64,000 bases of DNA from Anadara kagoshimensis (Eukaryota > Mollusca > Bivalvia > Arcoida > Arcidae): positions 6,631,886 to 6,695,885 of the forward strand of contig CM037874.1 of NCBI GenBank assembly GCA_021292105.1, written 5' to 3'. Made by a program: the position numbers and the translations under genes. The notes below the pieces were generated by a model. That model worked only from the letters and a program-made list of their open reading frames with translations, had not been told where the DNA came from and ran no database searches. Below, piece after piece: positions 29,301-57,800 of this stretch (position 1 is the stretch's first letter; each line of letters starts with the position of its first letter).

Positions 29301-29451
29301 TTGCGGAAATGGACCAGACGATTTTTCAGAGTCGCTAGACAGAGAACGCGAAATAAATGTTTTACTGGACAAGCGATTCAGTGGGTTTTATAAGTCTTCA
29401 GGAATCCAGTTGGTTAGTTTTGAGGACTGCGTTAACAAAATGAAAAAATGA
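20219..29451 (+). CDS. YDJC: YdjC-family carbohydrate deacetylase, complete five-exon gene
   Basis: Joining 20219-20387, 22068-22204, 27713-27812, 28115-28292 and 29103-29451 gives 933 nt, or 310 residues plus stop; the human protein is about 323. All introns are GT-AG and every phase matches. Seen: NADDFG at residues 7-12 just after the start; GLHVNISEG at 57-65; HADGHQHCH at 124-132; MTHPGY at 249-254; GGCGNGPDDFS at 260-270; REREINVL at 276-283. In this family the early Asp and the two His motifs bind the divalent metal used to remove acetyl groups from N-acetylated sugars such as chito-oligosaccharides. The animal protein's substrate is poorly known, so the reaction here is inferred from the family. 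There is no signal peptide or membrane segment, which suggests a cytosolic enzyme. The start is chosen because the ADDFG strand normally lies at the extreme N terminus. No catalytic residue appears lost despite heavy transposon load in introns 1 and 2. Confidence 0.95.
20467..20565. repeat. Short imperfect inverted repeat in YDJC intron 1
   Basis: The left arm around 20467 (GACACTTGTTTCCGATA) pairs with TATCAGAAACAAGTGCC around 20553, with an A/T-rich middle. The size and shape suit a small MITE or hairpin relic. Confidence 0.45.
20764..21704 (-). mobile_element. LINE 3' fragment bounded by 57-bp direct repeats (YDJC intron 1)
   Basis: On the minus strand 21640-21104 translates, with a few frame breaks, to a LINE ORF2 C terminus. 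It contains LWQLRISASNDFKRF, ALHDSIIAEVWRYPARYS, RTTCDLCN, HICCGCPAL and a final NDDELFEVLFGRTA before TAA at 21106-21104. The CxxC...H...C pattern is the usual zinc-knuckle-like tail of such proteins. The fragment lies between direct repeats at 20764-20820 and 21648-21704 that agree at about 54 of 57 positions, as expected of an unusually long target-site duplication around a 5'-truncated insertion. It is antisense to YDJC. The clade cannot be fixed without alignment. Confidence 0.75.
22068..22204 (+). CDS. YDJC: YDJC exon 2 (residues 57-102)
   Basis: The acceptor is TATTTTAG/GTTTAC and the donor GAG/GTAACG. It encodes the GLHVN metal-site His and then a GDGFFLG stretch typical of animal YDJC proteins. 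It enters in phase 1 and leaves in phase 0. It lacks an ATG-initiated long frame, so it is easily missed by ORF scanning. Confidence 0.93.
22403..22730 (+). mobile_element. tRNA-derived SINE (family C) in YDJC intron 2
   Basis: The head resembles a tRNA, with A-box-like TAGCCTAATTGGTAGAGTG and B-box GGGTTTGAACCCC. The body includes TAGTGACTGTTC and CGCCAAGCACT. The tail reads ATATCTCGACATAAGTG and then GGACGTAAAA, ending in CAATCAAT. It matches the copies at 36868, 408 (-) and 55010 (-). Confidence 0.8.
23067..23285. mobile_element. MITE family B copy 3, left half (split by insertion)
   Basis: It starts CCCAGTTTCACAATTATTCC and continues to ACACCTTAATTTCCTGAATA near 23220. The missing right end lies at 27598-27657, ending AAACCGGGGCC. 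The two halves are separated exactly by the 4.3-kb TIR element. Confidence 0.75.
23623..23834. mobile_element. MITE family A, copy 3
   Basis: The left TIR is GTTACAGACCTGTCGAAAG followed by TTTAACACTGAGCTAACG, and the right TIR is TAACTTAGTGTTAAATTTTC then GACAGGACTGTAC. It is nested in the 4.3-kb element. The middle differs from other copies, so conservation is mainly in the termini. Confidence 0.8.
24213..24300. repeat. A-rich simple sequence (A18 tract and A/T-rich tail)
   Basis: A run of 18 A at 24213-24230 is followed by an A-rich low-complexity stretch to about 24310. Confidence 0.8.
24571..24886. repeat. Two short tandem duplications
   Basis: A 31-bp unit (CACCAGTTGTATGGAGATAA core) occurs twice in 24571-24630. 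A 28-bp unit (CAAAATGTGCAAAATAGCAA core) occurs twice in 24830-24886. Both lie in YDJC intron 2 inside the 4.3-kb element. Confidence 0.8.
25204..25452. mobile_element. MITE family B, copy 4
   Basis: It starts TTCCAGTTTTACAATCATTT, has AAGATTTTCCTTAATTGAAA internally, and ends with the inverted GAGGAAAATCTCAAATAAGG then AATGACTGGAA. It lies inside the 4.3-kb element. Confidence 0.7.
25789..26580 (+). repeat. 30-bp minisatellite, about 26 copies
   Basis: The unit is TAGCTTTGACNGGYCAGTAT then GTWTACAGTA, exactly 30 bp, so copies align in register every 60 bases. From about 26041 to 26280 two alternating variants (TTTAGCTTTGACCGG and TATACCTTTGACGGG) form a 60-bp higher-order unit. Because 30 is a multiple of 3, several frames stay open across it, producing a 264-codon frame at 25768-26562 that is a by-product of the repeat. 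It is intronic (YDJC intron 2). Confidence 0.95.
27598..27657. mobile_element. MITE family B copy 3, right half
   Basis: AAGTTAAGAAGTCAAG... to AATCTTAGCTAAGGAATGAT and AAACCGGGGCC is the inverted counterpart of the left terminus at 23067. It completes the MITE interrupted at 23285. Confidence 0.75.
27713..27812 (+). CDS. YDJC: YDJC exon 3 (residues 103-135 and first base of 136)
   Basis: The acceptor is CATGCTTAG/GTGG and the donor CCAG/GTGAGT. It carries the family signature HADGHQHCH, with the His and Asp residues of the active site. It lies only 115 bp downstream of the right end of a 4.3-kb inserted element. Confidence 0.95.
28115..28292 (+). CDS. YDJC: YDJC exon 4 (residues 136-194 and two bases of 195)
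   Basis: The acceptor is AATTCCCAG/GGG and the donor ATCTG/GTAAAA. It encodes the helix region after the His motif, ending in AAAGIW. The Trp codon is split 2+1 with exon 5. Intron 3 before it is the shortest of the gene (302 bp). Confidence 0.92.
28410..28510. repeat. Dispersed repeat family F, copy 4 (YDJC intron 4)
   Basis: The core is AGTGATACCGGGTGCTCAGG followed by AAAGGTAGGTAAATCCTGTT and AAGCTGGCCACACTCACC. It is shared with the copies at 1668, 5764, 18815 and 32800. Confidence 0.6.
29103..29451 (+). CDS. YDJC: YDJC exon 5 and stop (residues 195-310)
   Basis: The acceptor is TTAATTGTAG/G. It encodes ITDKFLGLQTMG, the MTHPGY motif and the GGCGNGPDDFS loop, and ends KMKK-stop at 29449-29451. 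This is the largest exon and the only one that stands out as a long ATG-led open frame by itself. Confidence 0.95.
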
Positions 29452-33894: not shown

Positions 33895-34206
33895 AAAGAG
33901 AAAAAATGCAGGGTCGGACAAGGGATTGAACCTGGGATCGACCTCCTGCACAATAGGCGAGTGCTTTACCACTGAGCTACCCAGACCGCTACATTCCTCC
34001 CTTCCTTTTTTTTAATTCAACATCCTTGAATCTTAACTACCAGGTTGCACCCTGGGACCAACCTATTGGTTGGCCACTTCCCAGGGTTGGATGAGCCCCC
34101 AAATATAACATGAAAGAGAAAAAATGCAGGGTCAGACTGGGGATCAAACCCGGGACCTCCTGCACTATAGGTGAGTGCTCTACCACTGAGCTACCCAGAC
34201 CGCTAC
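33895..34206 (-). mobile_element. Dimeric tRNA-derived SINE
   Basis: Two tRNA-like heads lie on the minus strand at about 33990-33908 and 34205-34123. Each reads GGTCTGGGTAGCTCAGTGGT (A box), then GGTTCAATCCC or GGTTTGATCCC (B box). The spacer has CCAACCTATTGGTTGGCC hairpins. ACATATATGTAAC on the left and ACATATATGTTAC on the right look like a target duplication. A loss of CCA-end structure and the doubled head argue against functional tRNA genes. Confidence 0.7.
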
Positions 34207-36079
34207 ATATATGTTACTTATACCTGGCCTGCAAGAGAGCTTAAAAGCATTCAATATAAGTTATAATAATACTACATCATGTGTATTGGTCTTGGTACTT
34301 GATCTGGTCAGGTGGATCCAGCATTTGTTGTTTTCCCCATTTGAATTCCTATCAAAACAGTATCCACTGTAAAATCACTTCACAACACTCTAGGTTCAAT
34401 TTCCTTTTTGGTGCATATCCTACATTGTCAATATATTTACAAAAAAATCAGTAGTCTCTATTAGGACTGGCAAACTATATTGTCAGATAATATATCACGA
34501 TACATTTTTGTATGATAATTGATATGGTTCACAATGTGATACATCCAAGTATGTATCAAAATACACCAATTTGAAGTTTACCCCAAATGCTTTCTGTGTG
34601 TAATAGCATATCTAGACCAGCATGTCCAAAAATTTTAATTCAAAGGCATTCATTGACATTTTAATGACTTACTTATTTTCATAACTTTATTTAGATGTTT
34701 AGACTATCTATAAAAAAATTGTTTTTATTTTTGTTTGCATTATTGTGTATTTGCTTCTTAGAAGAGTTGTGTATTATCATATAATTATGCGTATCTTATA
34801 GTGGATAAAGTATCAGGATACGTATCATGAGATGGGTGTATTGTGGCAGCCCTTAAAGTCTCTTGGTAATCTTGTAAGTTGATTCCATACCAGACTCAAG
34901 GTTCTTGATAATGTTCATGAGTGAAATAATCGGAGCATAAAACACCATACCCACCATTGGCCACCAACTAACCAGCACATAGATTCAGGACAATAACAAT
35001 AAAGTACAATGATCTTTATTTTATGTCAATTACAATTACCATTTAAACTTAAGCTCTGAAGAGCTTTGTATATGACAAGCATATTAAAGATAAACTACCA
35101 TGCACATACATAAGACAAATTATTGCAGAAAAGCTTAAAATACATATATGTACTCATAAGATTTATTATAATCGCATGTTATACTGATAATAAAACTTTC
35201 ACACAGGCTACAAAAGATTAAAAAACCACACAAATAACAAAATGAAAGCAATGCCACTGAAGCTGAGCAAAGCTAAATAAGATATATAAAAAAAAACCAA
35301 AAAAAACCAATAAAACAAAGTTTAATTATCTTTTGAACTATCTCATTTGATTAAACACACCAAACACACTCCCTCCACTTATCAGTTTCTAACATCTTTG
35401 ATAGTTTTATTTATCTGTTTCAGATGAAGTAGAAACCAGTCAGATGTTGCAGTGTATACACTTATTACTATTTCTGAAGTTATGATCATTTTGAGGATTT
35501 GGAAGACCCATAAGTGTGGAAAATGTTTACAGTCTTTCAGAACTTCCTATCTCTGTTTAATCAGGTTTGCACTAATTTTACATTTAACAGAAGTTTAAAG
35601 TGCTGGTTTATAGAAAATTTTAGAACCTCTTACTGTTTAGGTTCGACTCTCTAACTTGGGAGATCTTGGTTCCAAAATGTATAAAATATAACTAATTCAG
35701 CATAGTTTTGTTCCTAGCTGTGTATGTGAAAGCTTGTATTTTGTCATCTGCTGGTGCATTTGGTTTTTTTACAGACTCCTCTTGATTTTATTACACTATA
35801 CAGGCTTATTTGTGCCAGAGTCTGAGTCAGAAAACTTTTCATAATTTTTTTCTGAATCATTTTAATGGTTTTTGTATGAGACATTGTTTTAAAGATCTGC
35901 TTACTTTTTTTGCTCATTAGTCATTTATTCATTCATTCTTCTATTTTTTAAAAATTAAATTACCATACAAATAGTGTAACAACAATCTGTGCACTTAACT
36001 AAAAGGGGAATAGACAGCTTAGACTTGAAGCAGCTCAGACTGTAAGGTGCCGCTATCAATCCAGGTAGTTCCTACCTGT
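34207..36079. other. Stretch upstream of the J-protein exons, nothing recognised
   Basis: The missing first exon of the J-protein gene could lie here or further upstream. I found no ATG-led segment ending in a phase-2 donor with a convincing sequence. Confidence 0.35.
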
Positions 36080-36730: not shown

Positions 36731-36815
36731 AAATACACATTATGATACACTTGGAGTCAAACCAACAGCGACTCAGTCAGAGATAAGATTAGCCTATTTG
36801 AAAGGTTGTAAAAAG
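36731..36815 (+). CDS. DNAJC4: J-protein exon: J-domain helices I-II
   Basis: The acceptor is AATTTTTTCAG/A and the donor AAAAAG/GTAAAT. One base completes a codon begun in an upstream exon, then NTHYDTLGVKPTATQSEIRL and AYLKGCKK follow. It ends in phase 0. The frame and J-domain similarity decide the reading; there is no ATG here. Confidence 0.85.
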
Positions 36816-39800
36816 GTAAATATGAGATGCACTCAAATTACCCAATCACTCATCTGGACAAATAACCACTATGGTAGCTCAGTTGGTAAAGCGCTCACTT
36901 TATATGTATGTTAAACCCTGGCTGGGTCTGACCAAGACTTAAATATAGGTAGTGACTATTCTTTGTCAAGCACTCAGCATTTAGAAATAAAAGTCATTGG
37001 GTCCTTCAGAAGAGACCTTAAAAACCGATGCCCCATGCCACGACAGGCTTGGCAGGTTAAAGAACCCTTCCTACACATTGCCCCAAGTGCACTTCAAAGG
37101 TAGAAAATTGTGTCACTAAACCTATAGCTAGTGGCATCTTGATATAAGTGAAATATTCTTGCCTTGGACGTAAAACCCCATACAATCAATCAATCAGATG
37201 AACAGATATACACCAAATGAAACAGACATTGAACCATCAATCTTCACATGCTAACATATACACACAGTTTAGATATCGCTGTGAATCAACCACTTTATAC
37301 TTAACATGTTTCTTGGTAGTTAAATACTAGTATATACATCAACAGTTGATGAACGAGATGGAAGAATGCTTTATCTTTAGCTTTATCTGTAGCTAGTAAA
37401 TGAATTAGATAAACTATGTGAAAACCTTGGCAATTCAATCTAAATTTTATACCCCCACTCCACCCACCTCACATTACATAGGTTTGCTAGGGTAACTGGT
37501 ATACCACCATTGATGTTCATCATACTTCAGTCATTTCTACTCATCAGATTTTAAATATCTCTACATATTAACATGATTAACATGATTACCGTAGGTACAT
37601 GCATTTTAATTTGTCAATTAACAATTTGTGATTGATTGTGTTTCCATTTTTAGCTCACCTGACCAAAGGTTATGGTATAGTGCAGCGTGTGTATGTGCGT
37701 GTGTGAGTGTTGTTATCACACATTTTCGACTTCTCTGAAAGTACTTGGCAGATTTCAACGAGACTTGGTCAGAAGCATGTCTTGGTCGATGCAATTTAGA
37801 TTTGTTCATGGCGTTGCCATGGCTACCAAAAATAGGTCACAGTGACCTATGGGTGCAAAAATCTTGAAAAGTCTTCTTCTCTGAAGCCGATGATGGGAGA
37901 AAAAATCTGATGTAATATTTGGCTTCTCTAGGGTTTTAAGCCTGTAGTTTGTTCATTTCGTGAAATTCGGTCGAAAAATGGGTTACGTTTTTGCGTTTAA
38001 TTTTGAAAAAATCGTAAAAAAGCTTCAATTGTTATAACTTACTATTTGACCAGATGATGACATGGGGTTTTCAGTTTTGACATCTTCTTGTTAGTATCTT
38101 TAAAATGAGGTCAAGGTCAATTGTAAAGGATCTTGACCTAATTTTTTTTACCTCTCATTATAACTATTATTTGGAAAACCATAAACTTTTTGTATAGGCT
38201 TGTATATTAGAATGTTGTAGGTATTGATACAACAATCATTTTTATGTATAGAAAAAGGTCATGGGTTCAAAAGTTAAGGTCACAGATGCACAACAATACT
38301 AAAATGGTTAATTATCTTAAAAACTATAGACTTTTTGTATAGGCATATATATTAGAATGTTGTAGGTATTGATACAACGGTCATTTTGATGTATAGAAAA
38401 AGCTCATGGGTTCAAAGGTCAAGGTCATAGATGTGAAACAATACCAAAATAGTTAATTATCTCGAAAAACTATAAACTTTTTGTATAGGCATGTATATTA
38501 GAATGTTATAAAGATTGATACAACCATCATTTTGATGTATAGAAAAAGGTCATGGGTTCAAAGGTCAAGGTCACAGATGCAAAACAATACCAAAATGGTT
38601 CATTATCTCGAAAACTATAAACTTTTTGTATAGGCATGTATATTAGAATGTTGTAGGTATTGATACAACGATTATTTTGATGTATAAAAAAAGGTCATGG
38701 TTTCAAAGGTTAAGGTCACAGATACGAAGCAATACCGAAATAGTTAATTATCTCAAACACTATAAATTTTTTGTATAGGCATGTATATTAGAATGTTGTA
38801 GGTATTGATGGAACAATCATTTTGATGTATAGAAAAAGGTCATGGGTTCAAAGGTCAAGGTCACAGATGCAAAACACTACCGAAATGGTTAATTATCTGG
38901 AAAACTAGAAACTTTTTGTAGAGGCATGTATATTAGAATGTTGTAGGTATTGATACAACAATCATTTTTGTACAGCGTTCATGATAGTGAACGTGTGTAC
39001 TATGCTGTCGCTTTCTTCCAAGATATCGAGCTTCTTTGCTATGAAATTATAAGATATGAGTACACCTGGAAATAGTGCGCCTGGTAAATGAGCGTGAAAG
39101 AAGTATATCTGTTTTATCGTGAGATATGTATTCTGAGACGGGTAATGCATTTGGTTACATATGCACATTTGGAATAAATTTTCGGAATACATTTCGGAAT
39201 CTAGTAAAATATTGCGACGGGATGCATCTAATAATTTCTGCAATTTGGCGAACTGATCTCATGTTTACAATAAAAAGTAGTTCGAGAAGTTGGCGTCCTA
39301 CGATGTAAAATCATAACTTTTTATGAAATGAACAGCAACGGCAGGTTGTTTAATTAATTCTTCGTGAAATCTACGGAAATTTAAATTTATTTTGAAGGTT
39401 ATGATAACGTATTTTGATGTTGAGGCAATTGTGTCATATTTTAAAACTGTTTATCGATTAGATTTTACTTTCGTGAAAGGGAGATAATTTGTACAGTTCT
39501 TGTGAGCAAATTTTAAATACAGTCTTTTTACCAGTTCCGAACAGGGTTTCATATAAGCGCTGCTGCAGACGTCATCCACAAGCAGAGGAAATAAAATTTA
39601 TGTGGTGTAATAATACAGATGTTTACTGATTCCAAAATATCGACACCTGTCCTCAAAAACATGGTAGTATGTTAACACGTGGTAGTATGTTTTCTTGAAA
39701 AAAGCATTTCTGTGATCACGATTTGTTTACATTGTTAAACTAGGTCACCAACAATCTGTCGACCTGTCGTGCACATACATTTAGGAAGCGGTTGAAGTTT

Positions 39801-42800
39801 ATATTATTTAAACAATTAATGCCCATACATTCAAGTAGAAGCAAATTGAGAAAGTTATTTTTCGATTCCTTTAATTGAACAGGGTTGAAATTTTAGATTA
39901 TTCGGTAGTAAAAATTCGGAACTGGTAAACCAACTGTACTTCACCATTAACATAAAACGGGAATATTGTGAGTGATAACCAGCAGTTAATTAAAACCCAG
40001 ATTAACAGCAAATGATCCAGTTACATACAACCGCTAGAATGTACCCCCTCATAGCGACGGTAGGATCTGCAAAACTCTACTTTCTCTCTATCCCAAATGA
40101 CAAAACGATTGGGTACAACTTTTTTAAATTTCAATTACCGATTGTCTTTTTCATATATTTATGAAATTATTATTTTCTACCATTTAATTCAGCAATACAT
40201 GGTTTGGTACATTGTTTCCTTTTCCAAAAAAAAAACCATCCGTCGGACTATGCATAGATCGAACCCCCCCCCCCCCCCCGAATTTTCGGTTATATTCTGT
40301 CTTGCCACAACACAATTTTCCCAACTACGCTGTACAACAGCACGACAGTGCTATGTTTATGTATAGAAAAAGGTTATTAGTTCAAGGTCAAGGTCACAGA
40401 TACGATAAAATACCAAAATGTTTAATTATCTCTAAAACTATAAGCAGTTTGTATAGGCATGTATATTAGAATGTTGTAGGTATTGATACAACAATCATTT
40501 TGATGTATAGAAAAAGGTCATTGATAAAGATGCGAAACAATACCGAAATAGTTAATTATCTACAAAACTATAAACTTTTTGTATAGGCATGTATAATAGA
40601 ATGCTGTAGGTATTGATACAATGATCATTTTGATGTATAGAAAATGGTCATGGGTTCAAAGGTCAAGGTCACATGCAAAACAATACTAAAATGGTTAATT
40701 ATCTCAAAAACTATAAACTTTTTGTATAGGAAAGTATATAAAAATGTTGTAGGTATTGATACAACAATCAGTTTGATGTATAGAAAAAGGTCATGGTTTC
40801 AAAGGTCAAGGTCACAGATGCAAAACAATACTGAAATAGTTAATTATCTCGAAAACTATAAACTTTTTGTATAGGCAGTATATAAATGTTGTAGGTATTG
40901 ATACAACGATAGTTTGATGTATAGAAAAGGTCATGGTTTCAAAGGTCAAGGTCACAGATGAAACAATACCGAAATAGTTAATTATCTCAAAACTATAAAT
41001 TTTTTGTATAGGCATGTATATTAGAATGTTGTAGGTATTGATGAAACAATCATTTTGATGTATAAAAAAGGTCATGGGTTCAAAGGTCAAGGTCACAGAT
41101 GCAAAACACTACCGAAATGGTTAATTATCTGGAAAACTAGAAACTTTTTGTAGAGGCATGTATATTAGAAAGTTGTAGGTATTGATACAACGGTCATTAG
41201 GATGTATAGAAAAAGGTCATTGGTTCAAAGGTCAAGGTCACAGATGCAAAACAATACTGAAATAGTTAATTATCTCGAAAACTATAAACTTTTTGTATAG
41301 GCATGTATATTAAATGTTGTAGGTATTGATATAACGGTCATTATGATGTAAAGAAAAAAGTCATTGGGGTTTCAGTATTTATGTTTTCTTTAAATCTATC
41401 AGCTAGCCATTAGTTATCAGGTGAGCGTATCAGGCCCATGGGCCTCTTGTTAAATTTTTAATTTGTTATAGTTTATAAAATGGATTTGTTTCTGTATTCC
41501 TAGAGGCATCCAGATATGAATCCAAATGATCCAAAATCACATGAGAAGTTTGTATTATTAAGTACAGCCTACAACATTCTGAGTGATAAATCAAGTAGAA
41601 GGAAATATGATGAAACAATAAATAATCGAGGACAGAGAGTGAGACCAATGTATAACAGTCCTAACATGAGATCAAACCCCTATAGACACAGGTATAGTAA
41701 CAATAATTAATCCAGGACAGAGAGTGACCAATGTATAACAGTAACATGAGATCAAACCCCTATAGACACAGGTATAGTAACAATAATAATCCAGGACAGA
41801 GAGTGAGACCAATGTATACAGTGATACCATGAGATCAAACCCCTATAGACACAGGTATAGTAACAATAAATAATCCAGGACAGAGAGTGAGACCAATGTA
41901 TAACAGTGATACCATGAGATCAAACCCCTATAGACACAGGTATAGTAATAATAAATAATCCAGGACAGAGAGTGAGACCAATGTATAACAGTGATACCAT
42001 GAGATCAAACCCCTATAGACACAGGTATAGTAACAATAATAATCCAGGACAGAGAGTGAGACCAATGTATAACAGTGATACCATGAGATCAAACCCCTAT
42101 AGACACAGGTATAGTAACAATAAATAATCCAGGACAGAGAGTGAGACCAATGTATAACAGTGATACCATGAGATCAAACCCCTATAGACACAGGTATAGT
42201 AACAATAAATAATCAGGACAGAGAGTGAGACCAATGTATAACAGTTACATGAGATCAAACCCTATAGACACAGGTATAGTAACAATAAATAATCCAGGAC
42301 AGAGAGTGGACCAATGTATAACAGTGATACATGAGATCAAACCCTATAGACACAGGTATAGTAACAATAATAATCCAGGACAGAGAGTGAGACCAATGTA
42401 TAACAGTGATACCATGAGATCAAACCCCTATAGACACAGGTATAGTAACAATAATAATCCAGGACAGAGAGTGAGACCAATGTATAACAGTGATACCATG
42501 AGATCAAACCCCTATAGACACAGGTATAGTAACAATAAATAATCCAGGACAGAGAGTGAGACCAATGTATAACAGTGATACCATGAGATCAAACCCCTAT
42601 AGACACAGGTATAGTAACAATAAATAATCCAGGACAGAGAGTGAGACCAATGTATAACAGTGATACCATGAGATCAAACCCCTATAGACACAGGTATAGT
42701 AACAATAAATAATCCAGGACAGAGAGTGAGACCAATGTATAACAGTGATACCATGAGATCAAACCCCTATAGACACAGGTATAGTAACAATAAATAATCC

Positions 42801-45800
42801 AGGACAGAGAGTGAGACCAATGTATAACAGTGATACCATGAGATCAAACCCCTATAGACACAGGTATAGTAACAATAAATAATCCAGGACAGAGAGTGAG
42901 ACCAATGTATAACAGTGATACCATGAGATCAAACCCTATAGACACAGGTATAGTAACAATAAATAATCCAGGACAGAGAGTGAGACCAATGTATAACAGT
43001 GATACCATGAGATCAAACCCCTATAGACACAGGTATAGTAACAATAAATAATCCAGGACAGAGAGTGAGACCAATGTATAACAGTGATACCACGAGATCA
43101 AACCCCTATAGACACAGGTATAGTAACAATAATTAATCCAGGACAGAGAGTGAGACCAATGTATAACAGTGATACCATGAGATCAAACCCCTATAGACAC
43201 AGGTATAGTAACAATAAATAATCCAGGACAGAGAGTGAGACCAATGTATAACAGTGATACCATGAGATCAAACCCCTATAGACACAGGTATAGTAACAAT
43301 AAATAATACAGGACAGAGAGTGAGACCAATGTATAACAGTCAGACCATGAGATCAAACCCCTGTAGACACAGGTATAGTAACAATAAATAATCCAGGACA
43401 GAGAGTGAGACCAATGTATAACAGTAATACCATGAGATCAAACCCCTATAGACACAGGTATAGTAACAATAAATAATCCAGGACAGAGAGTGAGACCAAT
43501 GTATAACAGTGATACCATGAGATCAAACCCTATAGACACAGGTATAGTAACAATAAATAATACAGGACAGAGAGTGAGACCAATGTATAACAGTGATACC
43601 ATGAGATCAAACCCCTATAGACACAGGTATAGTAACAATAAATAATCCAGGACAGAGAGTGAGACCAATGTATACAGTGTACCATGAGATCAAACCCCTA
43701 TAGACACAGGTATAGTAACAATAAATAATCCAGGACAGAGAGTGAGACCAATGTATAACAGTGATACCATGAGATCAAACCCCTATAGACACAGGTATAG
43801 TAACAATAATCCAGACAGAGAGTGAGACCAATGTATAACAGTGATACCATGAGATCAAACCCCTATAGACACAGGTATAGTAACAATAATAATCCAGGAC
43901 AGAGAGTGAGACCAATGTATAACAGTGATACCATGAGATCAAACCCCTATAGACACAGGTATAGTAACAATAAATAATCCAGGACAGAGAGTGAGACCAA
44001 TGTATAACAGTGATACCATGAGATCAAACCCCTAGACACAGGTATAGTAACAATAAATAATAGGACAGAGAGTGAGACCAATGTATAACAGTGATACCAT
44101 GAGATCAAACCCCTATAGACACAGGTATAGTAACAATAAATAATCCAGGACAGAGAGTGAGACCAATGTATAACAGTGATACCATGAGATCAAACCCCTA
44201 GACACAGGTATAGTAACAATAAATAATCCAGGACAGAGAGTGAGACCAATGAATAACTGTGATACCATGAGATCAAACCCCTAGACACAGGTATAGTAAC
44301 AATAAATAATCCAGGACAGAGAGTGAGACCAATGTATAACAGTGATACCATGAGATCAAACCCCTATAGACACAGGTATAGTAACAATAATAATCCAGGA
44401 CAGAGAGTGAGACCAATGTATAACAGTGATACCATGAGATCAAACCCCTATAGACACAGGTATAGTAACAATAAATAATCCAGGACAGAGAGTGAGACCA
44501 ATGTATAACAGTGATACCATGAGATCAAACCCCTATAGACACAGGTATAGTAACAATAATAATCCAGGACAGAGAGTGAGACCAATGTATAACAGTAATA
44601 CCATGAGATCAAACCCCTATAGACACAGGTATAGTAACAATAAATAATCCAGGACAGAGAGTGAGACCAATGTTAACAGTGATACCATGAGATCAAACCC
44701 TATAGACACAGGTATAGTAACAATAATAATCCAGGACAGAGAGTGAGACCAATGTTAACTGTGATACCACGAGATCAAACCCCTATAGACACAGGTATAG
44801 TAACAATAAATAATCCAGGACAGAGAGTGAGACCAATGTGAACTGTGACACCATGAGATCAAACCCTATAGACACAGGTTAGTAACAATAAATAATCCAG
44901 GACAGAGAATGAGACCAATGTATAACAGTGATACCATGAGATCAAACCCTATAGACACAGGTATAGTAACAATAAATAATCCAGGACAGAGAATGAGACC
45001 AATGTATAGCAGTGATACCATGAGATCAAACCCCTATAGACACAGGTATAGTAACAATAAATAATCCAGGACAGAGAGTGAGACCAATGTATAACTGTGA
45101 TACCATGAGATCAAACCCCTATAGACACAGGTATAGTAACAATAAATAATCCAGGACAGAGAGTGAGACCAATGTATAACTGTGACACCATGAGATCAAA
45201 CCCCTATAGACACAGGTATAGTAACAATAAATAATCCAGGACAGAGAGTGAGACCAATGTATAACTGTGATACCACGAGATCAAACCCCTATAGACACAG
45301 GTATAGTAACAATAAATAATCCAGGACAGAGAGTGAGACCAATGTATAACTGTGATACCACGAGATCAAACCCCTATAGACACAGGTATAGTAACAATAA
45401 ATAATCCAGGACAGAGAGTGAGACCAATGTATAACTGTGATACCACGAGATCAAACCCCTATAGACACAGGTATAGTAACAATAATTAATCCAGGACAGA
45501 GAGTGAGACCAATGTATAACAGTGATACCATGGGATCAAACCCCTATAGACACAGGTATAGTAACAATAAATAATCCAGGACAGAGAATGAGACCAATGT
45601 ATAACAGTGATACCATGAGATCAAACCCCTATAGACACAGGTATAGTAACAATAAATAATCCAGGACAGAGAATGAGACCAATGTATAACAGTGATACCA
45701 TGAGATCAAACCCCTATAGACACAGGTATAGTAACAATAAATAATCCAGGACAGAGAGTGAGACCAATGTATAACTGTGATACCATGAGATCAAACCCCT

Positions 45801-48800
45801 ATAGACACAGGTATAGTAACAATAAATAATCCAGGACAGAGAGTGAGGCCAATGTATAACAGTGATACCATGAGATCAAAACCCTATAGACACAGGTATA
45901 GTAACAATAAATAATCCAGGACAGAGAGTGAGACCAATGTATAACAGTGATACCATGAGATCAAACCCCTATAGACACAGGTATAGTAACAATAATTAAT
46001 CCAGAACAGAGAGTGAGACCAATGTATAACAGTGATACCATGAGATCAAACCCCTATAGACACAGGTATAGTAACAATAAATAATCCAGGACAGAGAGTG
46101 AGACCAATGTATAACAGTGATACCATGAGATCAAACCCCTATAGACACAGGTATAGTAACAATAATAATCCAGAACAGAGAGTGAGACCAATGTATAACT
46201 GTGACACCATGAGATCAAACCCTATAGACACAGGTATAGTAACAAAAATAATAGGGGACAGAGAGTGAGACCAATGTATAACAGTGATACCATGAGATCA
46301 AACCCCTATAGACACAGGTATAGTAACAATAAATAATCCAGGACAGAGAGTGAGACCAATGTATAACTGTGACATGAGATCAAACCCCTATAGACACAGG
46401 TATAGTAACAATAAATAATAGGGGACAGAGAGTGAGACCAATGTATAACAGTGATACCATGAGATCAAACCCCTATAGACACAGGTATAGTAACAATAAA
46501 TAATCCAGGACAGAGAGTGAGACCAATGTATAACAGTGATACCATGAGATCAAACCCCTATAGACACAGGTATAGTAACAATAATTAATCCAGAACAGAG
46601 AGTGAGACCAATGTATAACTGTGACACCATGAGATCAAACCCCTATAGACACAGGTATAGTAACAATAAATAATAGGGGACAGAGAGTGAGACCAATGTA
46701 TAACAGTGATACCATGAGATCAAACCCTATAGACACAGGTATAGTAACAATAAATAATCCAGGACAGAGAGTGAGACCAATGTATAACAGTGATACCATG
46801 AGATCAAACCCCTATAGACACAGGTATAGTAACAATAAATAATCCAGGACAGAGAGTGAGACCAATGTATAACAGTGATACCATGAGATCAAAACCCCTA
46901 TAGACACAGGTATAGTAACAATAATTAATCCAGGACAGAGAGTGAGACCAATGTATAACTGTGATACCATGAGATCAAACCCCTATAGACACAGGTATAG
47001 TAACAATAAATAATCCAGGACAGAGAGTGAGACCAATGTATAACAGTGATACCATGAGATCAAACCCTATAGACACAGGTATAGTAACAATAAATAATCC
47101 AGGACAGAGAGTGAGACCAATGTATAACTGTGACACCATGAGATCAAACCCCTATAGACACAGGTATAGTAACAATAAATAATCCAGAACAGAGAGTGAG
47201 ACCAATGTATAACAGTGATAACATGAGATCACACCCCTATAGACACAGGTATAGTAACAATAAATAATTCAGGACAGAGAGTGAGACCAATGTATAACAG
47301 TGATAACATGAGATCACACCCCTATAGACACAGGTATAGTAACAATAAATAATCCAGGACAGAGAGTGAGACCAATGTATAACTGTGATACCATGAGATC
47401 AAACCCCTATAGACACAGGTATAGTAACAATAAATAATCCAGGACAGAGAGTGAGACCAATGTATAACAGTGATAACATGAGATCAAACCCCTATAGACA
47501 CAGGTATAGTAACAATAAATAATCCAGGACAGAGAGTGAGGCCAATGTATAACAGTGATACCATGAGATCAAACCCCTATAGACACAGGTATAGTAACAA
47601 TAAAAATCCAGGACAGAGAGTGAGACCAATGTATAACTGTGATACCCGAGATCAAACCCCTATAGACACAGGTAGTAACAATAAATAATCCAGGACAGAG
47701 AGTGAGACCAATGTATAACAGTGATACCATGGGATCAAACCCCTATAGACACAGGTATAGTAACAATAAATAATCCAGGACAGAGAGTGAGACCAATGTA
47801 TAACAGTGATACCTTGAGATCAAACCCCTATAGACACAGGTATAGTAACAATAAATAATCCAGGACAGAGAGTGAGACCAATGTATAACTGTGATACCAC
47901 GAGATCAAACCCCTATAGACACAGGTATAGTAACAATAAATAATCCAGGACAGAGAGTGAGACCAATGTAGAACTGTGACACCATGAGATCAAACCCCTA
48001 TAGACACAGGTATAGTAACAATAAATAATCCAGGACAGAGAATGAGACCAATGTATAACAGTGATACCATGAGATCAAACCCTATAGACACAGGTATAGT
48101 AACAATAAATAATCCAGGACAGAGAATGAGACCAATGTATAGCAGTGATACCATGAGATCAAACCCCTATAGACACAGGTATAGTAACAATAAATAATCC
48201 AGGACAGAGAGTGAGACCAATGTATAACTGTGATACCATGAGATCAAACCCCTATAGACACAGGTATAGTAACAATAATTAATCCAGGACAGAGAGTGAG
48301 ACCAATGTATAACAGTGATACCATGAGATCAAACCCCTATAGACACAGGTATAGTAACAATAATTAATCCAGAACAGAGAGTGAGACCAATGTATAACTG
48401 TGACACCATGAGATCAAACCCCTATAGACACAGGTATAGTAACAATAAATAATAGGGGACAGAGAGTGAGACCAATGTATAACAGTGATACCATGAGATC
48501 AAACCCCTATAGACACAGGTATAGTAACAATAAATAATCCAGGACAGAGAGTGGGACCAATGTATAACAGTGATACCATGAGATCAAACCCCTATAGACA
48601 CAGGTATAGTAACAATAAATAATCCAGAACAGAGAGTGAGACCAATGTATAACAGTGATACCATGAGATCAAACCCTATAGACACAGGTATAGTAACAAT
48701 AAATAATCCAGGACAGAGAGTGAGACCAATGTATAACAGTGATACCATGAGATCAAACCCCTATAGACACAGGTATAGTAACAATAATCCAGGACAGAGA

Positions 48801-51800
48801 GTGAGGCCAATGTATAACAGTGATACCATGAGATCAAAACCCCTATAGACACAGGTATAGTAACAATAAATAATCCAGGACAGAGAGTGAGGCCAATGTA
48901 TAACAGTGATACCATGAGATCAAAACCCCTATAGACACAGGTATAGTAACAATAAATAATCCAGGACAGAGAGTGAGACCAATGTATAACTGTGATACCA
49001 TGAGATCAAAACCCTATAGACACAGGTATAGTAACAATAAATAATCCAGGACAGAGAGTGAGGCCAATGTATAACAGTGATACCATGAGATCAAAACCCT
49101 ATAGACACAGGTATAGTAACAATAAATAATCCAGGACAGAGAGTGAGACCAATGTATAACAGTGATACCATGAGATCAAACCCCTATAGACACAGGTATA
49201 GTAACAATAAATAATCCAGGACAGAGAGTGAGACCAATGTATAACAGTGATAACATGAGATCAAACCCCTATAGACACAGGTATAGTAACAATAAATAAT
49301 CCAGGACAGAGAGTGAGACCAATGTATAACAGTGATACCACGAGATCAAACCCCTATAGACACAGGTATAGTAACAATAAATAACCCAGGACAGAGAGTG
49401 AGACCAATGTATAACAGTGATACCATGAGATCAAACCCCTATAGACACAGGTATAGTAACAATAAATAATCCAGGACAGAGAGTGAGACCAATGTATAAC
49501 TGTGATACCATGAGATCAAACCCCTATAGACACAGGTATAGTAACAATAAATAATCCAGGACAGAGAATGAGACCAATGTATAACTGTGATACCACGAGA
49601 TCAAGCCCTATAGACACAGGTATAGTTACAATAGATAATCCAGGACAGAGAGTGAGACCAATGTATAACAGTCAGACCATGAGATCAAACCCCTATAGAC
49701 ACAGGTATAGTAACAATAAATAATCCAGGACAGAGAGTGAGACCAATGTATAACAGTGATACCATGAGATCAAGCCCTATAGACACAGGTATAGTAACAA
49801 TAATTAATCCAGAACAGAGAGTGAGACCAATGTATAACAGTGATACCATGAGATCAAACCCCTATAGACACAGGTATAGTAACAATAAATAATTCAGGAC
49901 AGAGAGTGAGGCCAATGTATAACAGTGATACCATGGGATCAAACCCCTATAGACACAGGTATAGTAACAATAAATAATCCAGGACAGAGAATGAGACCAA
50001 TGTATAACAGTGATACCATGAGATCAAACCCCTGTAGACACAGGTATAGTAACAATAATTAATCCAGGACAGAGAGTGAGACCAATGTATAACAGTGATA
50101 CCATGGGATCAAACCCCTATAGACACAGGTATAGTAACAATAAATAATCCAGGACAGAGAATGAGGCCAATGTATAACAGTGATACCATGGGATCAAACC
50201 CCTATAGACACAGGTATAGTAACAATAAATAATCCAGGACAGAGAATGAGACCAATGTATAACAGTGATACCATAAGATCAAACCCCTATAGACACAGGT
50301 ATAGTAACAATAGATAATCCAGGACAGAGAGTGAGACCAATGTATAACAGTCAGACCATGAGATCAAACCCCTATAGACACAGGTATAGTAACAATAAAT
50401 AATCCAGGACAGAGAGTGAGACCAATGTATAACAGTGATACCATGAGATCAAACCCCTATAGACACAGGTATAGTAACAATAAATAATCCAGGACAGAGA
50501 GTGAGACCAATGTATAACAGTGATACCATGAGATCAAACCCCTATAGACACAGGTATAGTAACAATAGATAATCCAGGACAGAGAGTGAGACCAATGTAT
50601 AACAGTCAGACCATGAGATCAAACCCCTATAGACACAGGTATAGTAACAATAAATAATCCAGGACAGAGAGTGAGACCAATGTATAACAGTGATACCATG
50701 AGATCAAAACCCTATAGACACAGGTATAGTAACAATAAATAATCCAGGACAGAGAGTGAGACCAATGTATAACTGTGATAACATGAGATCAAACCCCTAT
50801 AGACACAGGTATAGTAACAATAAATAATCCAGGACAGAGAGTGAGACCAATGTATAACAGTGATAACATGAGATCACACCCCTATAGACACAGGTATAGT
50901 AACAATAAATAATTCAGGACAGAGAGTGAGACCAATGTATAACAGTGATAACATGAGATCACACCCCTATAGACACAGGTATAGTAACAATAAATAATCC
51001 AGGACAGAGAGTGAGACCAATGTATAACAGTGATACCACGAGATCAAACCCCTATAGACACAGGTATAGTAACAATAAATAATCCAGGACAGAGAGTGAG
51101 ACCAATGTATAACAGTGATACCATGGGATCAAACCTCTATAGACACAGGTATAGTAACAATAAATAATTCAGGACAGAGAGTGAGACCAATGTATAACAG
51201 TGATACCATGGGATCAAACCTCTATAGACACAGGTATAGTAACAATAAATAATTCAGGACAGAGAGTGAGACCAATGTATAACAGTGATACCATGAGATC
51301 AAACCCTATAGACACAGGTATAGTAACAATAAATAATTCAGGACAGAGAGTGAGACCAATGTATAACAGTGATACCATGAGATCAAACCCCTATAGACAC
51401 AGGTATAGTAACAATAAATAATCCAGGACAGAGAGTGAGACCAATGTATAACAGTGATACCATGAGATCAAACCCCTATAGACACAGGTATAGTAACAAT
51501 AAATAATCCAGGACAGAGAATGAGACCAATGTATAACAGTGATACCATGAGATCAAACCTCTATAGACACAGGTATAGTTACAATAAATAATCCAGGACA
51601 GAGAGTGAGACCAATGTAGAACTGTGACACCATGAGATCAAACCCCTATAGACACAGGTATAGTAACAATAAATAATCCAGGACAGAGAATGAGACCAAT
51701 GTATAACAGTGATACCATGAGATCAAACCCCTATAGACACAGGTATAGTAACAATAATTAATCCAGGACAGAGAGTGAGACCAATGTATAACAGTGATAC

Positions 51801-54800
51801 CTTGAGATCAAACCCCTATAGACACAGGTATAGTAACAATAATTAATCCAGGAGAGAGAGTGAGACCAATGTATAACTGTGATACCATGAGATCAAACCC
51901 CTACAGACACAGGTATAGTAATTATGCTGTGTTTTCTATCAAATTGAAACATATTGTCCATGATTTATATATATATATTTTTTTTACCAATATATGCACA
52001 TATTATATATTATTATATATATATTATAAATTATCATGTATTTGTACAACCTTTGTATACAGGTCCTTGTTTTAGTAGTCGTATCACTACGAGTCGCGCA
52101 AGTGTGACGAGTAGTGATGCTGCTACTTAAAAAAAGAATGAGACCTGATACTAAGGGTTGTACATGCACATTGTGTATATGATATTTTTATCTAACATTT
52201 CCAACTTGATTATTTTAACTTATTAAAATAACACTTTATGTGAAAAAATTATATTTTACCACAGAAAAATGCTGAACTATGTTATCACATACGTTCTTTA
52301 GTAATGACATCATTATTATCAGTTGACAAATTGGAGATTTCCCAATGATGTCACAATGAGAAATCCAACTAAAATTGCACATGTACTTTACTGCCAATAT
52401 TTGTGGTGATACAAGATTATGTATCATGTGTGTTCAATAAAACTTGTATTTCATCAAATCAGATAGAAAAACTAGTCTAATGTTAGATATATACAATGAC
52501 GTCCCATCCAAAGCAGAATACTCTACTTTCATTCATTCTATGTAACCGAGACTAGGATAAACAACTGTGCTTATAACAAACTTGAAATACTAGTTTATAA
52601 TTTGTTGTAGTAACGAATACAGATCAGGATCAAGAGAATCGTGGACATATTATGACTTCTCAGCTAATTATGCTAAGTCAAAAGACTTCAGAAATAACAC
52701 CACTACACATCCTAAAGCCAATTATACACTATTTGACAAGACATCTGAGTTTATGGTGATAACATTTATATCAGTAATTGTGATTTATGCATTTATTAAT
52801 CATATGTAAGTAGAATTTTAAATCATTAAGCAGAATATAATCTTAGTTAAATACTTATTTTTTCAAATTGTATAATGGACTTCACCAGTGTACCACATGA
52901 TCAATACCCCTTAATGTTTATGTGAATGTTTCAGAAATTGTTTATATTGAAATTTCCAGGAGTAACACCATTTTTATGGGGAAAACTTGAACTGAAGCGA
53001 TATTCCATCTTCAATGGAAACAATTGTTTAGAAAAAACGTTATTGGGTATCATGTGGTACACTGGCAAATTTAATTGTAAAGTTATTTAGCAATGAATCT
53101 ATTTAAAATAACATAGCTTTTGTGACTGAAGTGAACTGTCCATTGTAGTAAAAAAGAGGGGAAATAAATGTTATTGTAAAGGGGTTTGGCATTGAATCTT
53201 ATGAAAAATACAACCTGTATGTAACTGATATAAAATGTCACAGTATGAAAGGACAAATATTGCCATTGTAAAGGGGTTTGGTATTGAATAAAAAGAAACT
53301 AGATTTTGAACTGGAATAATCTGTCACTGTGTGGTGATAAAATAGTTGTCAGTTCAAGCACAGGCATTACACTGCCATCCATAAATACTGGTACCTCTAG
53401 AAATTTACATTTGCAATAGTATTATATTCATAATGTCAATTTGCAATTGTTAAATTGAAATATTGAAGTTTTTGTAGTATTTTAAAGTGATATCTTTTAA
53501 CTTCATGATGATTAAAATGTCTGCAACAATGTTGTGTCTCTTGAAAACAAAATTCTTGGAATTTTTTAAAATTTTGGGCAAAAATATAAAAATGGAAGGA
53601 AAAATATAAAAATATATTTAATATTTACAAAGATTTTCCTTAACTTAAATTTAGTAAATATTGCTGATCTTTTTTGGAACTAAAATGGTAATTTTTGACA
53701 AAATCAAATACAGATGTTATAAGATTGAAGTACGGTACAGGCCTGTAGAGAGTTAAACACTGAGTTAACTGTAGAATCAACGGCTAATCTCTAACCCTCG
53801 TTAGCCTCATTATTCCGACAGCCTTTGGCAGTCATTGCTATCCATTTCTTGGTAGCTGTTGTGTCACTAGCTATCTCGGAAGCTGAGCTTCGACTTGTTT
53901 TTCGTTAGTTTAGGGTTAAACTTTTGACAGGTCTGTACCGTATGTCATCTTCAAAACAGTGTCTTAAATTCCTGAATAGCTTTACAATTAACAAAATTAT
54001 GAAGATTTCAAATTTGTTAGACTTAAGTTAAGGAAAATCTTAATTAAGGTATGATTTTTGAAACTGGGGCCAGGTGGTTTTATGTGGAGGTAGTTTTTAA
54101 ATTAAAATATGAAACACAATTACCTTAAAGCACTGGTTTTATTTGATGTCTGGCCTTTTTTAAGAATTGAATGTATATGGTTATTTGTATTTTTGTACAT
54201 TTTACCATTCTTAGACTGATAAATAGGTTATTATTTTGAACACTGACACTGGTGTTAATGTGAATCTCTCCATGTAGAACAAGTGACAAAGCTTTGTCAA
54301 TATAGGTTTTATTACATAGGGATTTGAAACACTACACAGTATTGACAATAACTGTAGATATGAGGTGGTTCTAAAGACTGCCCAGTTATAGTCCTGGTTG
54401 TTAAGATATAAACAACATTTACCACCAAACTAGGTGGGGTTATCATGTCTTCTTATCTGACTCAGTCTGATTCGATCACTTTTATTTTAGTTGTAAGCAT
54501 GCTCTGTAGTGGCAAAAGGGGCCTATTCTTTTCCAGCTTTACAGAAGCGTCTTTAGTGTGTACTGAAACACAGGGCCTTGGTTTTGAGTCTCATCCAAAA
54601 GACTATTCCAGTAATGAGCTTTTTACAACTCTAGTATGGGCAGGAAATGAATATCATCCAGTGAATTTCATAGTTCTGAGTGAGGTTCCAACCCACAACC
54701 ATTGACTGTGAAAGTCAGTTACAGTACTACTTGGCCATGTCCCCATAGGGTGGGTTGAATGCAAAGCATATTTTCTTCAGTTGCAACATTCAGTGTGTAT

Positions 54801-57800
54801 ATAATTGCTATATTTTGTATTTTTTAAAACATTTTGAAGACTGAAACTGATGTCCAAAGATATAAATTACCAGATTAAATTGTGTCACAGACAACAAAAA
54901 CATTATAGGTATGTAAAACTTGCTTTAAATAATACTTATATATAACAAGTAATAAATAACGAAAGAAGGTTCTGTAAAAATCCTTGATGAAACAGAGTTG
55001 AGTTAAGTAATAGTGTTTAATGTCCCAGTCAAGAATATTTCACTTATATTGAGACATTGCCAGCTATAAGTGAAGGTGGGTTGCACTTATAGCATTATAC
55101 AGCATGACAAGGGACCTTGTAAATTCTATGTTCCCATCTGAAAGAGCTGTTACTTTCATTTACTAATGCCAAGTGCTTGGGAAAAGAACAGTCAGTATCC
55201 ACTTTCAAGTCTTAGGTCAGACCCTTTCGGTGTTCAGAATCACGACCTCCCACTTACATGCTTGATGAAACAGAACTATAGCTTATAAATTAACAAAATT
55301 GTGTACTATCTGCGATTTGATTGGAGTTGTTCATCTAATCTGTCACTGTGAAATACAATTCCTTCATTGTTCCTTTTATTCAGTTATATACATACAGTTA
55401 TTGTAACCATACAGATTCTTCCTGAAGTATGTCTAAAGATTGCATAATATTTACTGCATGAAAATGCCATTCTTGCATACTCATTTATTTGTAGAAAAAA
55501 ATATATGAAATAGACATAGTAGTCATTGACCTCAGAGAACGGTGAATATTAATCCTTGTGAAAAACTTTATGTAGCTCGTTTTCACTGTATTATAAGTTG
55601 AAGGGTTCTGAAGACAAGTTCTACACATCATGCACTTTGATTATTTAATTTGAGAAATAAAATAAAATCAAATTTTATTTCTCTAATAACCGTCGGATGT
55701 CCTATATGAGGTTTCAAACATGCATTTATATACTGCCCAGATCTGCTGTGTTGGCCCCAAAAGGGGAAGTTTATTGATACCCCGGTATATAGATTCTCAT
55801 GAAAATTTTATAATACTGTAAAAGATACTGTTAACCACTAAAGTTTTGGTGTGTATATTTATGCTGTCGAATATCAGGACAATTTGGTTTGACTTGCTCC
55901 TAGGACCTTATTTAAATATTACATTTCTGATAGGTTTGACAATATGGACTCTCACCCTATCAGAAATGTAATATTTATTTTATTATACCGATTCATCAAA
56001 GTATACTGGATTGAAAATCATGACAGTCAGCTGTCAAAATGTAAGAAACTTATAAGACACTTGTATTTAACATTACTTTAGAAAAGTGTTTTACTGATTT
56101 AGAAATGAATGCGTTCAAACCACATACGCATTTTTTCTGCACATGTGACATTTTTGGTAATGTCAACAGCTCAAGTAATGTCACCCTGTAACTAAATCCG
56201 AGTTTGACATTAAATTTACCCAAACGCTCATTAACTTATAAATTTCTGAAAATTCACAAAAAGTATAATAATATTTGATGTATTAGCAGCACACAGAGTA
56301 GAAATGTTTATTGATACTACTTAAAATTCAGTACCATAGGGATGTAAAGACTAGTTACAACCCTTTGATCTGTCTGGCATATCATAAACCAGGAAGTAAA
56401 ATCTTCCTTCCCAGCTTAGTATAACAACCAAGTCTGAACATAATTAACAGATCATCGGTCATGCCCAAAATGTTCCGACAAATGGCTGGTATACTTGATT
56501 TACACGCAAAAAGAATTAAAAAAAAACTCGGCCCGAATTATGCAGTTTATTGACCAAAGCAGCGTCACAGCAGCTAATGACGTAATAGTGTCTGTGACGC
56601 TGCTTTGGTACCGACATGGCAGACAGTGTCAGAACATAATACACATGGTCGGCGATACGTCAATTATGGTCTAGTATACCTGTCAAATCTTTAAATGTAT
56701 AGTGGTTAATTCAGACAATTAATCAAATAACAGACCAATTAGACATTTTTATTTCATGGTGGGTGAGAAATAGAATGATAATTGATATTAGTAAAGAACA
56801 ATCACTCAGTCAGTCATGTCAGAATTTTGTTTCTGTTTTTGTTTTTTTACAAAATGTAACCATAGTTGGGTATAGACATTATACTGCTACTTTATCATAC
56901 TGTTATACTATAAAGGGGGTTATTTTCGCTGGGTGAAAATTTTGCGATTTCTGAAATCTCGCATTTCGTGTGGTTGTAATTTTTGCGTTACCAATATAAG
57001 TGGGTGTATATTGTTTATATATATGATATATTAACCTGTGTATGGTAGTTATTTTGGCGTGGGTAAAATTTTCGCGGTAATTTCTTAAGGGTGAAATAAG
57101 CAATAACTTTATCCACACGAAAATTTCCCCCATTACAGTATACATAAGGTTGGTTGGTTGGTTGGTTGGTTGGTTGAATGTTGCTTAACGTCGCATCAGC
57201 AATTTTTCAGCTTTTCGCCACGAGAACTATTTAATTAATCTCTATGGATTAATCTATGAACAATTTTGTGGATGCATGTGAAGTGTGAGTGTGTTGTATG
57301 GTCTGCCTTGTACTAGCGCGCACTCAGGGCGACTTTACCGTGCTAGCTCATAGAGTCAGTACGCCGCAGACGAGCGTACCACTCCCCCAGTCCATTATAC
57401 TGATACCAGGTGAATCAGTAAAGGCCAACAACAAGGAAAATATACATAAGTGGTGACTTTGATCATAATACATGTAATTACAGAATCTAATTGAGTTCAT
57501 TTGAAGTGGTATATTATAGTCTCAGATATTTGTGGTAATTTATTTTCCAATTTTATCTTCTCATGAAAAGTAGTTGGTTAACAGTATTGGACATGCCTTC
57601 AGGTGAACAATAATTTCAATTGTTTTCCCCTAAACTATAATAAAAAATTTAAATGTAACTTGAAACTTCATTCAAACTACTATCTACTGATTTGATAAAA
57701 ACATACCAGACTTGATGTCTTTAATTTAACATAATCTATTTTTTCATTTTGACAGCATTCTTAGAAGAGTCTCTAGCTCAATAGTAAAGAAGAAATTGAT

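Follow-up and report, generated by a model that had tools for sequence, protein, structure and literature searches.

A tandem array of a coding-exon end and its splice donor in intron 3 of a J-protein gene of the bivalve Anadara kagoshimensis

Introduction

The closest described systems to the locus treated here are two human genes in which a variable number tandem repeat (VNTR) multiplies a splice donor. In CBS the repeat unit is 31 bp long and, by the name of the variant, c.1444_1467+7(16_21), comprises 24 coding and seven intron bases (PMC2630376). The VNTR in intron 18 of ABCA7 has a 25-bp unit present in 12–427 units and reaches up to 10,678 bp; longer alleles go with lower expression, and skipping of the next exon rises strongly with length (PMC5954066). 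Here we describe an array of the same general architecture in a gene for a J protein in the bivalve Anadara kagoshimensis (Mollusca; Arcidae; GenBank assembly GCA_021292105.1, contig CM037874.1, positions 6,631,886 to 6,695,885, forward strand). The whole 64,000-nucleotide stretch is called the window, and positions are counted from its first letter.

Results

The array and its unit

Intron 3 of the J-protein gene opens with a 10.2-kb series of 85-bp units, each consisting of the 3' end of exon 3 (76–78 nt) and the first 7–9 nt of the intron. Tandem Repeats Finder, run on the 64-kb window, gives 122.0 copies with 96% matches and a score of 18972, which is far above chance. The window contains 120 occurrences of the motif CAGGTATAG, every one within the array, with starts running from 41689 to 51910; the G of the exact donor lies at 41692 in the first copy and at 51913 in the last. 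Two further copies carry small deletions past the donor GT (CAG/GTTAGT and CAG/GTAGT, where the slash marks the splice joint) and bring the copies with a donor GT to 122; each of the two 166-bp intervals between exact donors contains one of them. GACACAG precedes the GT in all 122 copies, and CAG/GTATAGT is exact in 120. The exon's own copy is counted within the roughly 122, with 121 intervals between donors. The unit contains the exon's own 5' splice site, and the donor motif is kept in the downstream copies.

The split between exon and intron bases can be read equally well as 76 + 9, 77 + 8 or 78 + 7, since a 2-bp AA is common to both sides of the joint: the exon copy starts ATGA/AACAATAA, and past the array the intron continues GTATAGTAATTATG. 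Sequence 3' of the last repeated donor is non-repeat, and such sequence makes up about 700 bp of intron 3. A preliminary description of the window had proposed about 120 tandem copies of a coding-exon boundary with its donor, standing in series ahead of a single acceptor, and a unit of 76 exon bases and nine intron bases. The number and the arrangement are borne out, and the proposed unit is one of three equivalent splits. An exact-match comparison of a 22-nt piece of the unit with viral contigs, one of eight scans, returned nothing.

The gene

The gene was modelled as six exons (690 nt) that join into a single open frame of 229 residues, interrupted by five GT–AG introns of 1166, 4688, 10,919, 2034 and 2847 bp (Table 1). 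Exons 1–4 were placed by tblastn of three proteins (P0001–P0003) against the window, and exons 5 and 6 were taken from frames matching the end of P0001. When 156 residues of the spliced product were compared with protein sequences, three relatives were recovered. The best is P0001, a 233-aa protein that, to judge by its short source contigs with the tag lgn, is probably transcript-derived; it is 60–61% identical to the J protein. The same 156-residue part matches Pfam PF00226 (DnaJ) with an E value of 5.9e-22, the HPD motif being residues 58–60, and the most hydrophobic 19-residue stretch of the protein (residues 167–185) falls nearly entirely in exon 4. Another AG lies at 52622, 12 nt past 52610, and would also keep the frame of exon 4; 52610 is preferred because of the spacing in the homologue. 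An exon at 41504–41691 and an acceptor at 52610 had already been proposed in the preliminary description, and both hold in a model that stays open over six exons and 229 residues and tracks a homologous protein across its junctions.

An N-terminal J domain followed by one C-terminal membrane segment is an architecture that fits DNAJC4/DnaJ-60, and the gene is presumably DNAJC4/DnaJ-60-like. The name 'dnaJ-like protein 60' belongs to one hit (P0009) among the best 120 of 186 homologues. The relative P0002 is gene product KUTeg_009408 of the blood clam Tegillarca granosa (Arcidae); P0001 agrees with it on either side of the HPD-bearing exon but differs at the extreme C-terminus. As annotated, P0002 is without the exon 3 residues, HPD motif included, and has unrelated residues in their place, where P0001 has those of exon 3; annotation of this exon may be difficult in the blood clam as well.

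Table 1. Positions of the J-protein gene and of the array in the window
Feature	Position	Strand	Basis
Exon 1: 28 residues with the start codon; identity to blood-clam-like homologue P0001 82%	35482..35564	+	tblastn with P0001, spliced model
Exon 2: beginning of the J domain	36731..36815	+	tblastn with P0001, spliced model
Exon 3: HPD motif and linker; last 76–78 nt are the likely source copy of the repeat	41504..41691	+	tblastn (E 3e-24), Pfam DnaJ, spliced model
Array of some 122 tandem 85-bp copies, exon copy included	41614..51921	+	Tandem Repeats Finder, donor motif positions
AATAAA in exon copy	41617..41622	+	sequence; source codons ACA ATA AAT
Intron 3, 10,919 bp, mostly array	41692..52610	+	spliced model
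First donor, GTATAGT, the 5' splice site of intron 3	41692..41698	+	U1 duplex energy, spliced model
Last repeated donor; non-repeat intron beyond	51913..51919	+	motif positions, sequence read
Exon 4: 195 nt, membrane segment	52611..52805	+	tblastn, spliced model, hydrophobicity
Exon 5	54840..54908	+	frame reading, homology in alignment, spliced model
Exon 6 with stop codon	57756..57825	+	frame reading, homology in alignment, spliced model

Donor choice and its products

When the gene is spliced in silico, joining donor 1 to the exon at 52611 gives the 229-aa protein, and each of the remaining 121 of the 122 donors gives one identical product of 124 aa that ends HRYSNNN and amounts to the J domain without the membrane segment. 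Direct read-through from exon 3 into the intron has the identical 124-aa end. The donors had at first been taken as equivalent, which they are not: 121 lead to a premature stop, and the full-length protein comes from donor 1 alone. Because later donors and intron read-through share the same end, the use of a later donor, retention of the intron and polyadenylation within the array would each lead to a single J-domain protein that lacks the membrane segment. An RNA spliced from a later donor would have an exon junction 3' of the stop and is hence an expected target of nonsense-mediated decay, by a general rule that also appears in PMC3826338; an RNA polyadenylated in the array is not expected to be one.

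Paired with the 5' end of U1, the first donor scores −10.4 kcal/mol in the register CAG/GUA(U)AGU, where a single U, at +4, is bulged out; this figure is a duplex energy under unmodified RNA parameters and not a splicing score. The gene's other four donors score −6.5, −7.0, −7.0 and −8.6 kcal/mol, and −10.4 kcal/mol is reached by 22 of the 3189 plus-strand GT sites outside the array and by 118 of the 120 exact donors within it. Bulge registers are an accepted mode of U1 pairing and have been tied to alternative donor use (PMC9311317). To call this donor moderate, as matching the consensus only from −3 to +3, was accordingly incomplete, the bulged-U register being the best U1 pairing of the five in the gene. 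A 255-nt array RNA of three units folds worse than all 200 of its shuffles (z +2.98), which does not support a structured RNA in the array. Because that RNA is less structured than the shuffles, folding predictions suggest that the array donors are probably accessible.

Origin and turnover of the array

Between the live exon and the consensus of the array, four of 78 positions differ (41628, 41660, 41661 and 41664). Three codons are affected, reading R, P and N in the exon and P, D and T in the consensus, and P0001 also has P, D and T. Over the repeated segment P0001 aligns gap-free, with 10 of 25 residues identical to the exon and 13 of 25 to the consensus. Since the alignment has no gap there, the coding exon is likely to be the source of the repeat; and since P0001 carries the array residue at all three differing codons, comparison of these sequences suggests that the array most likely keeps an older exon sequence and that the live exon changed afterwards. 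The polarity of these differences rests on one outgroup, P0001, as seven further relatives (eight with P0001, from the best 120 of 186) are not reliably alignable in the linker segment. The P-D-T combination is exact in 71 of the 121 downstream copies, 22 have other combinations, and 28 are frame-shifted or not comparable; copies 67, 68, 110 and 111 have H, as in P0001, where the exon has N. The suggestion is that an intron may preserve an older version of an exon after the exon itself has changed.

Among the 121 units there are 73 distinct sequences, and neighbours are barely closer than distant units (similarity 0.9615 at lag 1 vs a mean of 0.956 over lags 1–89). Substitutions average 0.67 per unit in units 1–36 vs 1.75 in the rest, a difference as large in none of 10,000 shuffles, which suggests recent turnover at the exon end of the array. 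Indel columns average 0.82 per unit in units 1–72 vs 0.22 after them, many falling in CCCC and AAA runs, and this excess may be homopolymer sequencing error. Both splits, at unit 36 for substitutions and at unit 72 for indels, were picked after the bins had been inspected. The longest exact match within the array, 399 bp, pairs stretches offset by one unit (42453/42538, spanning 42453–42936) and lies in the substitution-poor part on the exon side. Over lags 1–114 a run of at least three identical units occurs once, at lag 1. A higher-order repeat with a period of 43 units, considered from the similarity of units 67–68 to units 110–111, was rejected, lag 43 lying outside the ten most similar of lags 1–89.

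Read in the frame of the exon, the substitution types in the array number 33 non-synonymous (two of them stops) and six synonymous, where 181 and 44 are possible. There is no sign of coding constraint after amplification, and the counts are as expected without it. Hidden coding repeats were ruled out by an in-frame stop in the first unit and by the lack of a synonymous skew in the substitutions.

Discussion

The most probable reading of the array

We think it probable, though with limited confidence, that the array is a neutral or mildly costly minisatellite, born by tandem duplication and spliced out from donor 1 with some leakage. After the initial duplication the array would have grown through unequal exchange or slippage. 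Exon 3 (188 nt) would in most transcripts be defined by its own acceptor and the nearest donor, and the entire array would be removed together with intron 3. The repeats would be neutral or slightly costly to the gene, their U1-binding decoy donors leaking a little premature-stop RNA, most of it from the one or two extra units nearest the exon. The weak acceptor-like signals at the joints support this reading, with pyrimidine fractions of 0.47–0.59 vs 0.59–0.76 at the gene's acceptors (0.76, 0.76, 0.59, 0.65 and 0.76 for the five in order). So does the precedent of ABCA7, in which isoforms retaining one unit are minor (2 ± 1%) and unaffected by array length (PMC5954066).

Several points weigh against a neutral array with weak decoys. 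By duplex energy the array donors score well for U1, and as decoys they may not be weak. In ABCA7, length mattered through skipping of the next exon (PMC5954066). The concentration of indels in units 1–72 could reflect misassembly. In addition, the donor block is by some measures the best conserved part of the unit. Of the 85 windows, those with 14-mers across the donor have the most intact occurrences, up to 119 against a median of 90, and the 15-column window of the donor is the sole one with the fewest substituted copies. At a width of nine columns, windows as low as the donor number seven of 85 for substitution types and five of 85 for substituted copies, and nine random columns match its conservation with a frequency of 0.043, in a test chosen after looking. 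Gap cells in the nine donor columns are nine of 67, about the expected share, and at least six of these come from alignment placement, GACACAG being intact in all copies. The effect is modest, and as an indication of selection it is suggestive only.

Alternative readings

It is possible, but we consider it unlikely, that the array serves intronic polyadenylation gated by U1, where bound U1 would silence the array's hexamers and limiting U1 would release short mRNAs for one soluble 124-aa J protein. Between 41692 and 51921 AATAAA occurs 94 times, once per unit in 94 of the 121 units, and 92 of these hexamers begin 10 nt 3' of the donor G in an exact CAG/GTATAG. The order of donor and then poly(A) signal matches bovine papillomavirus (BPV), in which a poly(A) signal is suppressed by U1 at a 5' splice site a few nucleotides upstream (PMC3826338). 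Also in its favour are the 120 occurrences of UGUA within the array, the poor folding of the 255-nt RNA and the fact that read-through into the array would yield the same 124-aa product. However, AATAAA is part of the codons of the source exon, so that its repetition needs no function, and it is absent from 27 of the 121 units. The region 10–50 nt 3' of the array hexamers is moreover poor in U (0.20 vs 0.34 at the 103 AATAAA elsewhere in the window), although richer in UGU/GUG (3.06 vs 1.15).

We regard it as doubtful that the array is a regulatory polymorphism whose length matters, a proposal made by analogy in which a longer array would mean less full-length J protein, perhaps through skipping of the next exon as in ABCA7. 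There, VNTR length tracks both lower expression and more skipping of exon 19, but use of the in-array donor did not vary with length (PMC5954066). For CBS, the title of a paper cited in PMC2630376 links the VNTR to reduced CBS activity. Skipping of exon 4 (195 nt) here would be in frame and would lose the membrane segment, which is the predicted analogue of the skipping in ABCA7.

Two further proposals are improbable. One takes the array to be an assembly artefact, a short genuine array having been inflated or scrambled. The excess of small indels in units 1–72 and the 399-bp exact match at a one-unit shift are in line with this; yet 73 of the 121 units are distinct in sequence, substitutions are dispersed throughout the array, neighbours are scarcely closer than distant units, and the whole is enclosed in one intact gene model with non-repeat flanks. 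The other, of much the same low standing, extends the polyadenylation proposal to a working switch: about 120 U1 sites, most of them followed at 10 nt by a poly(A) hexamer, would sustain transcription through the long intron under normal conditions, limiting U1 (as in heat stress) would end transcripts anywhere in the array, the soluble 124-aa J protein would replace the membrane-anchored one, and copy number would set the threshold. Heat shock in human cells does raise intronic polyadenylation, likely through lost U1 protection (PMC9098121); a link from such stress to this J-protein gene is speculation by analogy.

Recursive or ratchet splicing, in which the AG/GT of each joint would be used first as an acceptor and then as a donor, the intron being removed by steps of 85 nt or by jumps over many units, is very improbable: AG does stand immediately before GT (GACACAG/GT) at 122 of 122 joints, and four joints equal the exon 4 acceptor in pyrimidine fraction (0.59), but the tract is weak overall (0.53 at 93 joints and 0.47 at 25, besides the four at 0.59) and steps of 85 nt would be very short.

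The locus is in effect a natural titration of splice-site competition, with about 120 donors of almost identical sequence ahead of a single acceptor and the same wrong product from every donor except the first. Rules of donor choice by first arrival, by nearness to the exon or by nearness to the acceptor predict clearly different RNA patterns here. The AATAAA beside most donors likewise provides a natural test, in tandem, of the protection by U1 from premature polyadenylation.

Other features of the window

Intron 2 holds two arrays that apparently belong to one repeat family of about 145 bp (38175–38968 and 40355–41364; Tandem Repeats Finder periods 145/291 and 143/426), and the second ends 140 bp before exon 3. 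Just 5' of exon 3, 41360–41455 resembles a transposon end by reading impression only, and between 37600 and 41500 inverted pairs of at least 18 nt were limited to two, both imperfect. At 25786–26528 a 30-bp tandem repeat of 24.8 copies is open on both strands (288 aa on the plus strand, 191 aa on the minus strand); its plus frame matches Keratin_B2 at 3e-7 overall with no single significant stretch, which is typical of low-complexity repeats. An open frame at 29077–29451 resembles YdjC-like proteins in their C-terminal part (PF04794, E 1.2e-6; 29 bits, with the cut-off at 29.7) and is probably an exon of another gene, some 6 kb upstream of the J-protein gene. Two tRNA-like predictions with near-repeated sequence lie on the minus strand at 33911–33987 and 34129–34201. 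Because Rfam reports no family in the window at its gathering thresholds, they are probably tRNA-derived repeats and not genes. A search for phage records matching a neighbouring open reading frame returned none.

Comparison with known systems

That a coding-exon boundary amplified with its donor is unusual, as the preliminary description had it, still holds, but the architecture has precedents, the CBS and ABCA7 VNTRs likewise repeating a splice donor. Among the matches listed from a search of the open-licence literature, no array of more than 100 copies of a coding-exon end plus donor was found. Drosophila hsr-omega has tandem repeats with a splice-like nonamer, a nonamer that appears in none of the matches listed; as a non-coding gene it was dropped as a parallel.

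Two further reports touch on the same theme. Variable tandem repeats at exon–intron borders in human segmental duplications alter splicing and can create new introns in recent duplicates, whereas here an existing intron has been lengthened (PMC2812944). Intron gain by tandem genomic duplication is similarly a genic tandem duplication tied to splice sites; here no new intron is proposed, and an existing donor has been multiplied (PMC4974935). The BPV element is described as one pair of donor and poly(A) signal, where this array has 92 in tandem, a putative dependence on U1 and no U-rich downstream element seen (PMC3826338).

ABCA7 is close in that its array starts at the exon's own donor GT, that of exon 18, and that use of an in-array donor, keeping one unit, leads to a frameshift and a stop. 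It differs in that its unit starts with the donor and lies beside the exon, with no coding bases, while the unit here is mostly coding, and in that its effect of length is the skipping of the next exon (PMC5954066). In CBS, to judge by the variant name, the end of a coding exon is repeated together with its donor, which is the architecture found here. The CBS array comprises 16–21 copies of 31 bp (PMC2630376); the present one belongs to an invertebrate J-protein gene, has about 122 copies of an 85-bp unit and includes a poly(A) hexamer in the majority of them. The type of array is known, and what appears new, among the matches listed, is the large coding part of the unit, so high a copy number of a unit of this kind, the hexamer next to the donor and the lineage; a likely bivalve case thereby joins the class known from human CBS and ABCA7.

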